From Janibacter limosus (GTDB taxonomy: Bacteria; Actinomycetota; Actinomycetes; Actinomycetales; Dermatophilaceae): a stretch of DNA of 64,000 bases. Within the stretch, counting starts at the first letter, position 1; every line of letters begins with the position of its first letter. Shown in pieces: positions 48,839 through 54,339 of this stretch. The notes below the pieces were generated by a model, which was not told the DNA's origin, made no database searches, and was given only the letters and a program-made list of their open reading frames with translations. Position numbers and translations under genes: made by a program. Location: the NCBI RefSeq assembly GCF_004295485.1, contig NZ_CP036164.1, forward strand, positions 620,001 to 684,000. Reading direction: 5' to 3'.

Positions 48839-49363
48839 GTGGACCTGCGCATCACCCCGCTCCGTGTCGAGGACGCGGGGACGATCGCGGTGCTGCAGAA
48901 CAGCTTGTGGCGACTCACCTATGCGGGGCTGCTGCCGCCGGACGTTCTGGCGGCGCGGGATGACGAGACCAACATCGGGGTCTGGCGTGACCGGGCGGCT
49001 GCCCACGAGAGCGCTGGAGTCTCGCCCGAGGGAGCGCGTACCCTCGTGGCGCATGACGAGCGCGGTACGGCCATCGGATGGGCGACGACCGGGCCACCGA
49101 GGGACGCGGACCCGCCGACGGCCACCGAGCTGTGGTCCCTCTACGTGGCTCCCGAGCACCACGGGTGCGGGGTGGCCCGACGACTGCTGGCCGCGGTCCT
49201 CCCTTCGTCCGCCCCCGCGCACCTGTGGGTGGTGAGGGGCAATGATCGGGCCATCACCTTCTATCGCACGGCGGGTTTTGCGCCCGACGGACTGGTCAAG
49301 CGCGACGACCGGGTCGGCGCGGACGAGCTGCGGATGGTGAGGCACGGCGCCGGGCACGACTGA
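48839..49363 (+). CDS. GNAT family N-acetyltransferase
   Basis: A 174-residue single GNAT domain. The acetyl-CoA loop is [18 protein letters not shown] near residue 101 (the usual R/Q-x-x-G-x-G/A reads HHGCGVA) and the C-terminal [17 protein letters not shown] closes the fold. The substrate is unknown. GTG start 8 nt after the DUF808 stop, with no clear ribosome site. Confidence 0.85.
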
Positions 49364-49365
49364 TG

Positions 49366-49413
49366 GATTCGAAGAAGGATCGCGACTGCGAGGTCGCGCT
49401 CCTTCTTCGAACC
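49366..49413 (+). terminator. Palindromic terminator-like repeat, copy 3
   Basis: Arms ATTCGAAGAAGGATCGCGAC and the near-complement pair over about 19 bp with one mismatch and a 6-nt loop. It begins 3 bp after the GNAT stop and shares its arm sequence with the copies at 2726 and 3853. Confidence 0.6.
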
Positions 49414-49454
49414 GCCTCGTTGCCGCCCTGGAGGGCTGCGCCGGCCCGAGCGCC

Positions 49455-49460
49455 TAGACT
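49455..49460 (+). promoter_or_regulatory. Probable -10 box of ahcY
   Basis: TAGACT lies about 85 nt before the GTG start. The leader holds an AGGAG ribosome site. I could not recognise an SAH or SAM riboswitch in it. Confidence 0.4.
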
Positions 49461-49545
49461 GGTCGCAGCCGGCGTGGGTGATGACCCGCGAGAGCCCAGA
49501 AGGGTCGCGCCGGGTCCGAACCCCACCTGTCACAGGAGTTTTCAC

Positions 49546-50994
<1,449 letters not shown>

Positions 50995-51007
50995 GCCGCC
51001 TCGACCT

Positions 51008-51037
51008 CGGCCCCGTGGGCACCTGCCCGCGGGGCCG
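51008..51037 (+). terminator. Terminator of ahcY
   Basis: CGGCCCCGTGGGC pairs with GCCCGCGGGGCCG around ACCT, 14 bp past the ahcY stop, followed by GTTTC. Confidence 0.75.
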
Positions 51038-51052
51038 GTTTCGGGCCTCTGC

Positions 51053-51145
51053 GCGCACCTTGTCCGCATCTCCTTAAGGTCGTGCGCACCTTGTCCGCAT
51101 CTCCTTAAGGTCGTGCGCTCGTGGGGCGCATCTCCCTAAGGTCGT
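51053..51145. repeat. Three 31-bp tandem repeats at the SMR gene end
   Basis: Units at 51053, 51084 and 51115 read GCGCACCTTGTCCGCATCTC followed by CTTAAGGTCGT; the third has some changes. The third contains the stop codon of the minus-strand SMR gene. Each unit carries the palindrome CCTTAAGG or a one-base variant. Confidence 0.85.
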
Positions 51146-51465
51146 GCGCGGCTGGGGACGAGCTTCAGTCCGACGACGGCCGCGACGATCCCCGCGATGA
51201 GCAGGGCCTTGGCGGGGGAGAAGGCCTCCTCGCCGGTGGCCATGGCCCAGATGACGGTGAGGGCGGCACCGACCCCGGTCCAGATGGCATAGCCCGTACC
51301 GATGGGGATGGAACGGACGGCGATGCCCAGGCCGGCCATGCTGATGGCCAGGGCGACGAGGAAGACGACGGTCGGCAGGGGTTTGCTGAAGCCCTCCGAG
51401 TGGCCCAGCGCAGTGGCCCAGACGGCCTCGAAGACGGCGCTCACGAGCAGGATGATCCACGGCAT
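51136..51465 (-). CDS. SMR family transporter, second subunit (Gdx-like)
   Basis: A 109-residue four-helix small multidrug resistance protein. The membrane Glu is in VSAVFEAVWATAL near residue 13, and IPIGTGYAIWTGVG near 57 is the signature of the guanidinium exporter (Gdx/SugE) subtype. Its ATG overlaps the stop of the first SMR gene in TGATG, so the two are co-translated and may form a heterodimer. The stop lies inside a 31-bp repeat. Predicted role: export of guanidinium in exchange for protons, under the upstream riboswitch. Confidence 0.9.
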   Translation of the reverse strand: MPWIILLVSAVFEAVWATALGHSEGFSKPLPTVVFLVALAISMAGLGIAVRSIPIGTGYAIWTGVGAALTVIWAMATGEEAFSPAKALLIAGIVAAVVGLKLVPSRARP

Positions 51466-51779
51466 CAGGCCACGACCTTCAGGCCCGCGACGCAGGCGAC
51501 GAGCAGGGTGATGAGGGCCAGCCGGGCGGGCGAGGCGAGCTCGTCCCCCTTCGCCATGGACCACAGGACGGTGAGCGTCGCGCCGATGCCGACCCAGACC
51601 GCATAGGCGGTACCCGTCGGGATGCTGGCCATCGCCCACGCGAGGCCGAGCATGCTGGCGACGAGCGAGACGAGGAAGAGCACGGAGGGAACGGGGCGGG
51701 TGAACCCGCGGGAGGCGGACAGGGCGCTGGCCCAGACGGCCTCGAGCATCCCCGAGACGATGAGCACGATCCAGGACAT
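51465..51779 (-). CDS. SMR family transporter, first subunit (Gdx-like)
   Basis: A 104-residue SMR protein with four helices. VSGMLEAVWASAL near residue 8 has the central Glu; GFTRPVPS near 25 and IPTGTAYAVWVGIG near 53 match guanidinium exporters such as Gdx-Clo. AAGGAG lies 6 nt before the ATG but is sequestered in a hairpin next to a guanidine-III riboswitch. Paired SMR genes of this kind usually give a dual-topology or heterodimeric exporter. Confidence 0.92.
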   Translation of the reverse strand: MSWIVLIVSGMLEAVWASALSASRGFTRPVPSVLFLVSLVASMLGLAWAMASIPTGTAYAVWVGIGATLTVLWSMAKGDELASPARLALITLLVACVAGLKVVA

Positions 51780-51798
51780 GGGACTCCTTGCCGAGTCC
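51780..51798 (-). promoter_or_regulatory. Hairpin burying the SMR ribosome binding site
   Basis: On the minus strand GGACTC and GAGTCC pair around GGCAAG, covering the AAGGAG of the first SMR gene. The GGACTC arm is also the 3-prime strand of the riboswitch pseudoknot, so the two pairings exclude each other. Confidence 0.65.
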
Positions 51799-51835
51799 GT
51801 CTTGTCGCTGTGCGGGTACGGCTCCCTCGTCCGCA
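51793..51835 (-). ncRNA. Guanidine-III riboswitch (ykkC-III)
   Basis: On the minus strand the leader reads GCGGACGAGGGAGCCG, then TACCCGCACAG, then CGACAAGACGGACTC. These match the guanidine-III class in order and spacing: P1 GCGG/CCGC, the GGACGAGG and CCGTACCC core, and ACAAGACGG closing the pseudoknot. GAGCCGT pairs with ACGGACTC with one bulged A. It lies 14 nt upstream of the first SMR ATG. This class binds guanidinium and turns exporter expression on; here ligand folding would free the ribosome site. Identified from memory of the consensus. Confidence 0.88.
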
Positions 51836-51943
51836 GGCCCGATCGCCGGACCTGCCGTCCACGCTACGGCGCCGGCTCCTCACTGTCACCTGCGGCCTGT
51901 GTGATGATGGGCCGACCGCAGCACCCGTGGGAGAGGGAAGACC

Positions 51944-52621
51944 GTGAAGGGACGTGTCCTCGTCGTCGATGACGACCAGGCTCTGGCCGAGATGCTCGGG
52001 ATCGTCCTGCGCAAGGAGGGGCTCGACGTCGCGCACGTCGCCGACGGCGCCCGGGCGATCGACGCCTTCCACGAGGCCCGCCCCGACCTCGTGCTCCTCG
52101 ACGTGATGCTCCCCGGCATGGACGGCATCGAGATCTGCCGCCGGCTGCGGCAGGAGTCCGGTGTGCCGATCGTCATGCTGACGGCGCGTACCGACACCGT
52201 CGACGTCGTCGTGGGCCTCGAGTCGGGCGCCGACGACTACATCGTCAAGCCCTTCAAGCCGCAGGAGCTCATCGCCCGTCTGCGAGCCCGGCTGCGTCGC
52301 GGTGACGAGCCCGAGCCCGAGCGCCTGACGATCGGGGACCTGACCATCGACGTGGCCGGTCACTCGGTCAAGCGCGGCGAGCAGTCCCTCGCCCTCACGC
52401 CGCTCGAGTTCGACCTCCTCGTGGCGCTCGCCCGCAAGCCGTGGCAGGTCTTCAGCCGTGAGGTGCTCCTCGAGCAGGTGTGGGGCTACCGGCACGCCGG
52501 TGACACACGACTGGTCAACGTCCACGTCCAGCGGTTGCGCAGCAAGATCGAGCACGACCCCGAGAACCCCCAGATCGTCGTCACCGTCCGGGGTGTCGGG
52601 TACAAGGCAGGGCCGTCCTGA
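51944..52621 (+). CDS. mtrA: Response regulator MtrA
   Basis: A 225-residue OmpR-family regulator, the essential partner of MtrB in Actinobacteria, controlling cell wall hydrolases and division. The acidic pocket is VVDDDQALAE, the phosphoacceptor Asp lies in VLLDVMLPGMDG near residue 53, the switch Lys is in IVKPFKPQEL near 100, and the winged helix ends VVTVRGVGYKAG. GTG start with a weak GGGAAG site. The gene leads mtrA-mtrB-lpqB, spaced 2 nt from mtrB. Confidence 0.95.
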   Translation: MKGRVLVVDDDQALAEMLGIVLRKEGLDVAHVADGARAIDAFHEARPDLVLLDVMLPGMDGIEICRRLRQESGVPIVMLTARTDTVDVVVGLESGADDYIVKPFKPQELIARLRARLRRGDEPEPERLTIGDLTIDVAGHSVKRGEQSLALTPLEFDLLVALARKPWQVFSREVLLEQVWGYRHAGDTRLVNVHVQRLRSKIEHDPENPQIVVTVRGVGYKAGPS

Positions 52622-52623
52622 CG

Positions 52624-54339
52624 ATGACCTCGGGCCCCCTCACGGAGGAGACCGAGGCCCCGGACGCGTCCAGCCCCGAGGTCGAGGCAGGCGCCGCGCC
52701 GCGCGGTGACGGTTTCGTCGTGCGTCAGGTCAAGGCACTCGTCGACCTCTGGCGTCGCTCGCTGCGCTTCCGAGTCGTCACCAGCACGCTGATCCTCGGT
52801 CTCGTGGTCGTCTCGATCATCAGCCTGACGATGTACCGGTCGATCGCCGACGGCCTGGTTGACAACCGGATCAAGCTCGCCCAGACCGAGTCCCGCAAGC
52901 TCACGGACGACGCGCAGGCCGGGTTCAACGGCTACACCGGCACCCCTGAGCTGCCGGTCTTCGCGAGCAACCTCGTCAACCGCACCCTCAAGGCGCCGGC
53001 GGGGGACGAGAGCCGCTACGTCATCTTCACCCGCAGCATCGACAACAGCTCTGACGTTCGGATCCCGTCGGAGGAGTCCGACGACGTGAGCCTCGAGTCC
53101 GTCCCGGCCTCCCTGCGCCAGGCGGTCTCGGCAGACCCCAGTCGTCAGCAGACGATGGTCATCGACCTCGATCGACCGACCCCCGATGCCGTCGGGTCCG
53201 CCTTCCCGGGGCAGTCGGCCAGCTCCGAGACCATCCCAGCGGTCGTCGTCGGGTCGCAGGTCGAGGTGCCGAGCGCCGACAAGTACGACATCTACTTCAT
53301 CTACCCGATGGACCAGGAGGAAGCGACCCTCGGCACGATCTCGAGGTCCTTCATCCTCGGTGCGCTCTTCCTCATCGCCCTCGTCTCGGCGATCGCCTAC
53401 ATCGTGACGAGCATGATCGTCACCCCGGTGCGACGTGCCGCGGCGGCCGCCGAGCGTCTCTCCGCCGGCCACCTCAACGAGCGGATGTCGGCGCGCGGCC
53501 ACGACGACCTCGCCCTCCTCGGGCAGTCCTTCAACGAGATGGCCGACAACCTGCAGACGCAGATCCGTCAGCTCGAGGGCCTCTCCCGGGTCCAGCAGCG
53601 CTTCGTCTCGGACGTCTCGCACGAGCTGCGGACACCGCTCACGACGATCCGCATGGCCGCCGACCTGCTCCACTCCTCGCGGGACGAGATGGATCCCATC
53701 TCGGGACGCTCCGCAGAGCTGCTCCACGACGAGCTCGACCGCTTCGAGGAGCTGCTGGCCGACCTGCTCGAGATCAGCCGCTACGACGCGGGCGCGGCGG
53801 TGCTCGAGCAGGACCCTGTCGACCTCTTCGCGATCATCGACCGGGTGGTGGCGTCCACGACGTCGATCGCCGACGCGCGCGGCAGCGAGGTCACCGTGCA
53901 CCGTGCACCGGGGCAGACGGCCATCGCCGAGGTCGATGCCCGCCGCATCGAGCGGGTCCTGCGCAACCTCGTCGTCAACGCCATCGAGCACGGCGAAGGG
54001 CGGCCCGTCAACGTCTGGGTGGGCTCCGACGACGAGGCCGCTGCCGTCCTGGTGGAGGACCACGGCGTGGGGCTCAAGGCAGGAGAGGCCTCGCTGGTCT
54101 TCAACCGCTTCTGGCGGGCCGATCCCGCCCGGACCCGCACCACCGGCGGATCCGGCCTGGGGCTGGCGATCGCGCTCGAGGACGCACGGCTGCACCACGG
54201 CTGGCTGCAGGCCTGGGGCGAGCCCGGGGCCGGGTCGCGCTTCCGGCTGACCGTTCCCAAGGTCGCCGGTGGACCACTCGCGGGTTCCCCCCTTCCGCTC
54301 ACGCCACGTGAGGGAGACCTCCCGGGAGCGAGCGCATGA
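52624..54339 (+). CDS. mtrB: Sensor histidine kinase MtrB
   Basis: A 571-residue membrane kinase. A cytoplasmic N-terminus of about 45 residues is followed by a first helix near 52-72, an outside domain of about 160 residues, a second helix near 237-262, and HAMP. The H-box is DVSHELRTPLTTIRM near 335; NAIEHGEGRP and GSGLGLAIALEDA are the N- and G-boxes. It phosphorylates MtrA in response to wall or osmotic cues, modulated by LpqB. ATGA overlap with lpqB. Confidence 0.95.
   Translation: MTSGPLTEETEAPDASSPEVEAGAAPRGDGFVVRQVKALVDLWRRSLRFRVVTSTLILGLVVVSIISLTMYRSIADGLVDNRIKLAQTESRKLTDDAQAGFNGYTGTPELPVFASNLVNRTLKAPAGDESRYVIFTRSIDNSSDVRIPSEESDDVSLESVPASLRQAVSADPSRQQTMVIDLDRPTPDAVGSAFPGQSASSETIPAVVVGSQVEVPSADKYDIYFIYPMDQEEATLGTISRSFILGALFLIALVSAIAYIVTSMIVTPVRRAAAAAERLSAGHLNERMSARGHDDLALLGQSFNEMADNLQTQIRQLEGLSRVQQRFVSDVSHELRTPLTTIRMAADLLHSSRDEMDPISGRSAELLHDELDRFEELLADLLEISRYDAGAAVLEQDPVDLFAIIDRVVASTTSIADARGSEVTVHRAPGQTAIAEVDARRIERVLRNLVVNAIEHGEGRPVNVWVGSDDEAAAVLVEDHGVGLKAGEASLVFNRFWRADPARTRTTGGSGLGLAIALEDARLHHGWLQAWGEPGAGSRFRLTVPKVAGGPLAGSPLPLTPREGDLPGASA

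Follow-up and report, generated by a model that had tools for sequence, protein, structure and literature searches.

A guanidine-III riboswitch preceding a paired Gdx-like exporter operon in Janibacter limosus, with a predicted hairpin that competes for its pseudoknot strand

Janibacter limosus carries a guanidine-III riboswitch that probably activates the translation of a guanidinium exporter made of two subunits. The element lies in a 64,000-nucleotide stretch of contig NZ_CP036164.1 (assembly GCF_004295485.1, positions 620,001 to 684,000), referred to here as the window, whose own numbering is used throughout. In the proposed mechanism, the 3' strand of the pseudoknot helix P2 would pair, without guanidine, with the sequence at and just after the Shine-Dalgarno (SD) site (GGACTC with GAGTCC) and would hinder the 30S subunit. 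Guanidinium would stabilize the pseudoknot, which would take over this strand (ACGGaCTC with GAGCCGT), so that the hairpin would open and the SD would become exposed. The second subunit would then be made through translational coupling at a TGATG overlap. From sequence we infer ligand binding, the ON direction, heterodimer assembly and guanidinium transport at this locus, and the “complete translational ON switch” named by the first-pass annotation is best read as a model prediction. With an OFF state this specific, and with the comparative support described below, a short RNA would be enough to test how guanidine binding leads to ribosome access.

The class of the element was established with the Rfam covariance model RF01763 (Guanidine-III), a check on which the assignment could have failed. 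This model matched window positions 51856-51790 of the minus strand, on which all leader and exporter features described below also lie, with 51.7 bits against a gathering cut-off of 36. The match spans model positions 1-67, the full family length, with significance values of E 8.2e-8 for the 64-kb window and E 1.1e-9 for the whole genome. It is the single place above the cut-off in the 3.55-Mb genome, the runner-up place scoring 17.6 bits. Both helices of the H-type pseudoknot are present in the window: P1 joins GCGG (51831-51834) to CCGC (51812-51815), and P2 joins GAGCCGT (51818-51824, placed by the Rfam alignment) to ACGGaCTC, that is, to the strand ACGGACTC at 51793-51800, in which A51796 is a bulge. 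The three conserved core segments of the class, CGGACGA, CGUACCCG and GACAAGACG, are all found. Two-sided changes in P2 occur among relatives, with GAGCCGT/ACGGaCTC exchanged for GAGCAGT/ACTGaCTC in 6 of 15 Janibacter leaders. The element is therefore a guanidine-III riboswitch by class, and the earlier description of a class-III core with P1 and a pseudoknot holds. The span given in that description, 51780-51835, takes in P1, the core, P2 and the SD and omits the 5' stem-loop of the Rfam model, which alignment and folding place at 51837-51851, extendable to 51855-51833.

The aptamer stands 5' of two small multidrug resistance (SMR) genes, with 10 nt between the Rfam match and the ATG at 51779. 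SMR gene 1 (ORF1, 51465-51779) encodes a Gdx-like protein of 104 aa, and SMR gene 2 (ORF2, 51136-51465) encodes one of 109 aa. The start of ORF2 overlaps the stop of ORF1 as TGATG. Both proteins match PF00893 (72.6 and 68.1 bits; cut-off 23.7), and they are the only PF00893 matches in the genome. Their nearest solved structure is 6wk5_B (E 1.2e-18 for ORF1 and 1.1e-18 for ORF2), well ahead of the EmrE chains, whose best values are 3.1e-10 and 2.9e-6. The entry 6wk9 is listed together with the 6wk5_B sequence, and because 6WK9 is assigned to Gdx-Clo in excerpted text of PMC9574504, the 6wk5_B sequence can be taken as Gdx-Clo. SugE is the top NCBI model for both ORFs, which score 91.9 bits (ORF1) and 79.8 bits (ORF2), below its cut-off of 126 bits; the model is intended for close relatives of SugE, which makes “Gdx-like” the more cautious label. 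Gdx-Clo, a SugE-type guanidinium exporter of the SMR family, is the top solved relative of both subunits, and the alignments showed that the central Glu13 and the GxG of TM3 are retained in both. Gdx-Clo is a homodimer, whereas the Janibacter locus has two overlapping genes. The Arg/Lys charge bias, computed by the formula of PMC9574504 with approximate loop borders, is opposite in these adjacent genes (-2 for ORF1 and +3 for ORF2). According to excerpts of the same source, paired SMRs carry opposite charge bias, and paired genes yield about 20% of Gdx transporters (PMC9574504). ORF1 and ORF2 look like a fixed-topology heterodimeric Gdx pair; the overlap, the PF00893 matches, the precedence of 6wk5_B over EmrE and the bias values bear out the TGATG-coupled Gdx-like pair first read at this locus.

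Within the leader, the sequence GGACTC (51798-51793), a candidate anti-SD strand inside the P2 3' strand, is shared by two mutually exclusive helices, since it can pair either in the pseudoknot P2 or with GAGTCC (51786-51781). The SD, AAGGAG (51784-51789), lies 4 nt 5' of the ATG. The alternative hairpin folds at -10.5 kcal/mol, with six pairs around the 6-nt loop GGCAAG (51792-51787), and the base that is bulged in P2, A51796, is paired in it. In leader folds, the pair probability of this hairpin was 0.75-0.80 for RNA running from 51858 to the start codon and rose to 0.99-1.0 once the RNA extended 27 or 57 bases past it. The first-pass annotation had the hairpin burying the whole AAGGAG; it does form in the predicted folds, where it covers GAG, the last three SD bases, and leaves AAG in the loop. 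Holding both P2 strands out of pairing, as a rough proxy for the RNA with bound ligand, made GAG more accessible. Its values rose from 0.19, 0.20 and 0.09 to 0.78, 1.0 and 0.28 in the RNA that stops at the start codon; in the RNA reaching 51750 they started near 0 and rose to 0.22, 0.60 and 0.71. In the longer RNAs the same treatment made the AAG of the SD less accessible (its first base, for example, went from 1.0 to 0.26) because other local pairs form. The two helices are close in energy, at -7.4 or -9.0 for the P2 duplex and -9.4 or -11.0 for the hairpin helix, depending on the strand length used.

Randomized spacers place this hairpin in perspective. Free shuffles of the spacer were as stable in 57 of 20000 cases, shuffles with the SD fixed in 2165 of 20000, and spacers that kept the SD but were otherwise random at 72% GC in 814 of 20000. 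With the SD held fixed, the hairpin is not unusual in the window alone, where the evidence for it is weak. Chance could thus account for it in the window sequence by itself, and relatives were therefore compared.

Among 15 Janibacter leaders, the same GACTC/GAGTY hairpin folds in 11, and the P2 3' strand adopts other pairings in three (L066, L071 and L074); leader L072 produced no such hairpin on folding. One hairpin pair is changed on both sides in L076 (AACTC/GAGTT), and at that pair L064, L067 and L073 have G-U. Within the genus, P2 3' strands folded with their own spacers reached -6.96 versus -6.04 with swapped strands, and none of 300 swaps was as low. Janibacter loci in which the P2 3' strand pairs with at least two SD bases made up a share of 0.667 with own strands and 0.708 with swapped ones. 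A MAFFT alignment of the 15 leaders placed the spacer out of register, so hairpin pairs were not counted on it. As a separate observation, L072, L075 and L076 carry ACACGACG just 3' of P1, where the conserved core has ACAAGACG, and L072 and L075 are followed by one SMR match, not two. Decay or altered sensing is possible in these core variants.

The comparison was extended beyond the genus to 292 loci, a number reached after dropping L046 and L294, in which the core was unmatched. Of these, 5 lacked a called start and 21 had a spacing below 10 or above 30 nt; with both groups removed, 266 were left. The collection is not a random draw. It includes 175 loci, among them the window's own, that are mostly the best-scoring among the matches listed; the loci from a contig scan were chosen by the GCGG pattern, again among the matches listed. 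Some scan loci come from the same genomes as other loci (L229 and L070, for example). Thinning at 70% identity on the first SMR protein, which reduces 266 loci to 66, removes these genome copies, and counts over 266 loci keep them. A start could be called in 287 loci, and in 224 of these the start codon lies 16-21 nt past the conserved ACG.

In the 66 thinned loci, the P2 3' strand folded with its own spacer reached -4.56 kcal/mol versus -3.73 kcal/mol for swapped strands, a difference attained in 0 of 5000 permutations. Both subtypes contributed (24/5000 for GCGG, n=35; 37/5000 for CCGG, n=31). An 8-mer slid along the leader as a control gave z -3.36 at the P2 3' strand and values from -1.71 to +0.96 at 16 other offsets. 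Harsher thinning to 24 loci gave 2/5000, its CCGG part (n=9) gave 1036/5000, and the harshest thinning, to 12 loci, gave 194/5000. In 45 of the 66 thinned loci, the P2 3' strand makes four or more pairs with the start codon or the sequence preceding it. The SD-region duplex equals or exceeds P2 in stability in just 18 of the 66. Pairing of at least two SD bases to the P2 3' strand occurred at 0.453 versus 0.372 swapped in GCGG-type loci and at 0.515 versus 0.426 in the thinned set; CCGG-type loci showed no such excess (0.367 own versus 0.372 swapped). Measured against shuffled spacers, the 66 loci showed only a slight shift (mean rank 0.417, median z -0.06, Wilcoxon p 0.013). No common register emerged when gapless classes were searched for fixed-register covariation.

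In other orders, a strict filter that kept 10 of 24 loci revealed no own-strand excess (z +0.2, 2767/5000). A relaxed filter, set after the strict result, kept 21 loci and gave z -0.59 to -1.36 over four strand widths, not significant; three non-SMR starts were hand-chosen in it, and L313, L314 and L321 were left out. Long hairpins do fold in single loci of these orders, namely L306, L307, L324 and L329. As a possible mark of selection on exclusive pairing, the excess is present in the 66 thinned loci, is not significant in other orders and has no fixed register. The hairpin platform thus appears supported within the order-centred and GCGG-pattern set and not established for the class, and the evidence that the predicted hairpin exceeds chance comes from the relatives, not from the window sequence.

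A further signal lies directly before the start codon. The triplet GTC occupies the three preceding bases in 142 of 266 loci and in 30 of the 66 thinned loci. As controls, 494 other ORFs were taken from the window and from the fetched scan loci; 144 of them have an SD-supported start, and GTC stands before 7 of these, so that the thinned loci show a marked excess (Fisher p 6e-12). Such a GTC may pair with the conserved GAC of AAGACG, a pairing that would close off the hairpin at many of the loci. In the window, these three bases are CCC.

Other accounts of the leader have to be weighed against strand exchange. The aptamer could be real and the GGACTC/GAGTCC match incidental, with control exerted by a pseudoknot formed beside the SD or by a block to RNase E scanning. 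Because P2 5' strands and SDs are alike rich in G, some match between a P2 3' strand and the SD is to be expected, and the 2165 of 20000 SD-fixed shuffled spacers that equal the hairpin in stability, the lack of a significant own-strand excess in other orders and the lack of a common register all fit this explanation. RNase E protection has moreover been described for guanidine-III in a review that cites Richards and Belasco 2021 (PMC12186494, from excerpts), and the genome encodes an RNase E/G (500 bits); since the enzyme is present, SD release and RNase E protection could add to one another. An incidental match nevertheless sits poorly with the advantage of own over swapped strands in the 66 thinned loci (0/5000), confined to the P2 3' strand, with the pairing of the otherwise bulged A51796 in the hairpin, and with the GTC excess. 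We consider this account unlikely, while giving it real weight.

Two further alternatives were judged far less probable. Masking of the SD by another strand, the CTCC just 5' of P1 in many CCGG-type leaders, is suggested by the frequency of CTCCCGG before P1 in relatives and by 8-mers from that region, which pair with the SD region at mean energies of -5.0 and -5.1 kcal/mol, compared with -5.0 for the P2 3' strand. These 8-mers showed no own-strand excess (z -1.06 and -0.33), though an invariant strand could not show one, and the window carries GGCCTGCGG 5' of P1, with no CTCC; for this locus the explanation is highly improbable. Control of transcription ending instead of translation is likewise highly improbable for this leader, although guanidine-I and -IV act on transcription according to excerpts of PMC12186494. 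A stretch of 10 nt that includes the SD separates the end of the aptamer from the start codon, and no terminator-like site was found in 51000-52000.

Strand exchange is a familiar principle among translational ON riboswitches, in which one strand is common to the aptamer and to an anti-SD hairpin. The arrangement proposed here is the same as in those general cases, and only the particular aptamer differs. For the guanidine-III class, the closest described system is the ykkC-III riboswitch of Thermobifida fusca (5NWQ), which in excerpts of PMC5696562 has the same H-type P1/P2 pseudoknot and conserved core as the Janibacter element. It likewise adjoins an SMR gene and a ribosome site, and competing structures were suggested for it, their destabilization being thought to expose the nearby ribosome site (PMC5696562). 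A review also states, in its excerpted text, that guanidine frees the SD in this class (PMC12186494). The Janibacter element differs in having GCGG/CCGC as P1 and a bulged A in P2, and its SD begins 3 nt past the P2 3' strand, whereas the ribosome site of T. fusca is 16 nt from the 3' end of the riboswitch (PMC5696562, from excerpts). A specific anti-SD partner is named here, unlike in the excerpted T. fusca account (PMC5696562). No anti-SD model for guanidine-III was seen in the excerpts covered by the literature search, and no priority is claimed for the hairpin. The class, the kind of target and the SD-freeing mode were thus already known or proposed; what is added here is the particular exchange of strands, together with the support it receives from relatives.

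The riboswitch is widespread among relatives. RF01763 matches above the cut-off were obtained in 103 of 186 family genomes, in 182 of 396 drawn from the order and in 42 of 396 drawn from the phylum. Among the genus members listed, a match reaches E 0.01 or lower in 15 of 16, and the one without is a genome 79% complete. Across the 266 loci, two SMR genes follow 131 of 137 GCGG-type aptamers and 8 of 128 CCGG-type aptamers, one further locus being of TCGG type; among loci not selected by pattern the counts are 23 of 25 and 8 of 128. The proteins follow the same division, with opposite charge bias in 142 of the 146 readable two-gene loci (of 155) and a bias of 0 in 107 of 127 single SMR genes. 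The RNA subtype is therefore informative about whether a locus encodes a single or a paired exporter. Its role as an independent predictor of target type was rejected, as the two traits, aptamer subtype and gene number, change only 3 and 2 times on a tree of 149 first-SMR proteins, in which few forks are well supported (a star marks 12 of the 146 inner branches). So few changes on the SMR tree indicate that riboswitch and operon were co-inherited.

A broader proposal, for and against which we find the case evenly balanced, is that actinobacterial guanidine-III switches share one platform. The 3' segment, made of GAC and the P2 3' strand, would swap between pseudoknot and ribosome site; the SD region would nearly copy the P2 5' strand, and GTC would close the OFF hairpin in about half of the loci. 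GCGG/CCGC would go with heterodimeric Gdx pairs and CCGG with a single Gdx.

Some loci of other orders have features of their own. L307, L325, L302, L313 and L314 have Guanidine-III matches without an SMR match in the next 1.1 kb. The ORFs after L307 and L325 begin alike, and another target gene family may be under guanidine-III control there. A distinct subtype, found in L316-L318, L323, L324 and L326-L328, has P1 CCCG/CGGG and a core ending in AAGACGACGCA; its spacer to the start is 33-56 nt, and it fits a simple search pattern poorly.

The surroundings of the operon were also inspected. A divergent response regulator and a histidine kinase (51944-54339) lie on one side, and a convergent S-adenosylhomocysteine hydrolase gene (49363-50994) on the other. 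A promoter-like pair was noted by eye at 51861-51889 on the minus strand, comprising GTGACA (51889-51884), a 17-nt gap and TAGCGT (51866-51861). With this pair as promoter, transcription would begin immediately ahead of the aptamer, and TAnnnT is seen by eye at about the corresponding position in 14 of 15 Janibacter leaders; a consensus scan of 51000-52000 found no promoter-like site. In the interval that separates the riboswitch from the divergent response-regulator gene, ATCATCACACAG (51896-51909) is kept by eye in 13 of 15 Janibacter loci and is perhaps part of the promoter or operator of that gene. At the other end, SMR gene 2 and the S-adenosylhomocysteine hydrolase gene converge, and a tandem array (51053-51149) with 3.1 copies of a 31-bp unit lies between their ends. 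Its 18-mer CGACCTTAAGGAGATGCG has 209 genome copies at one mismatch or fewer (130 forward and 79 reverse), compared with 0 for the reversed control, and these copies, often in 31-32-bp steps, constitute a genome-wide repeat family.
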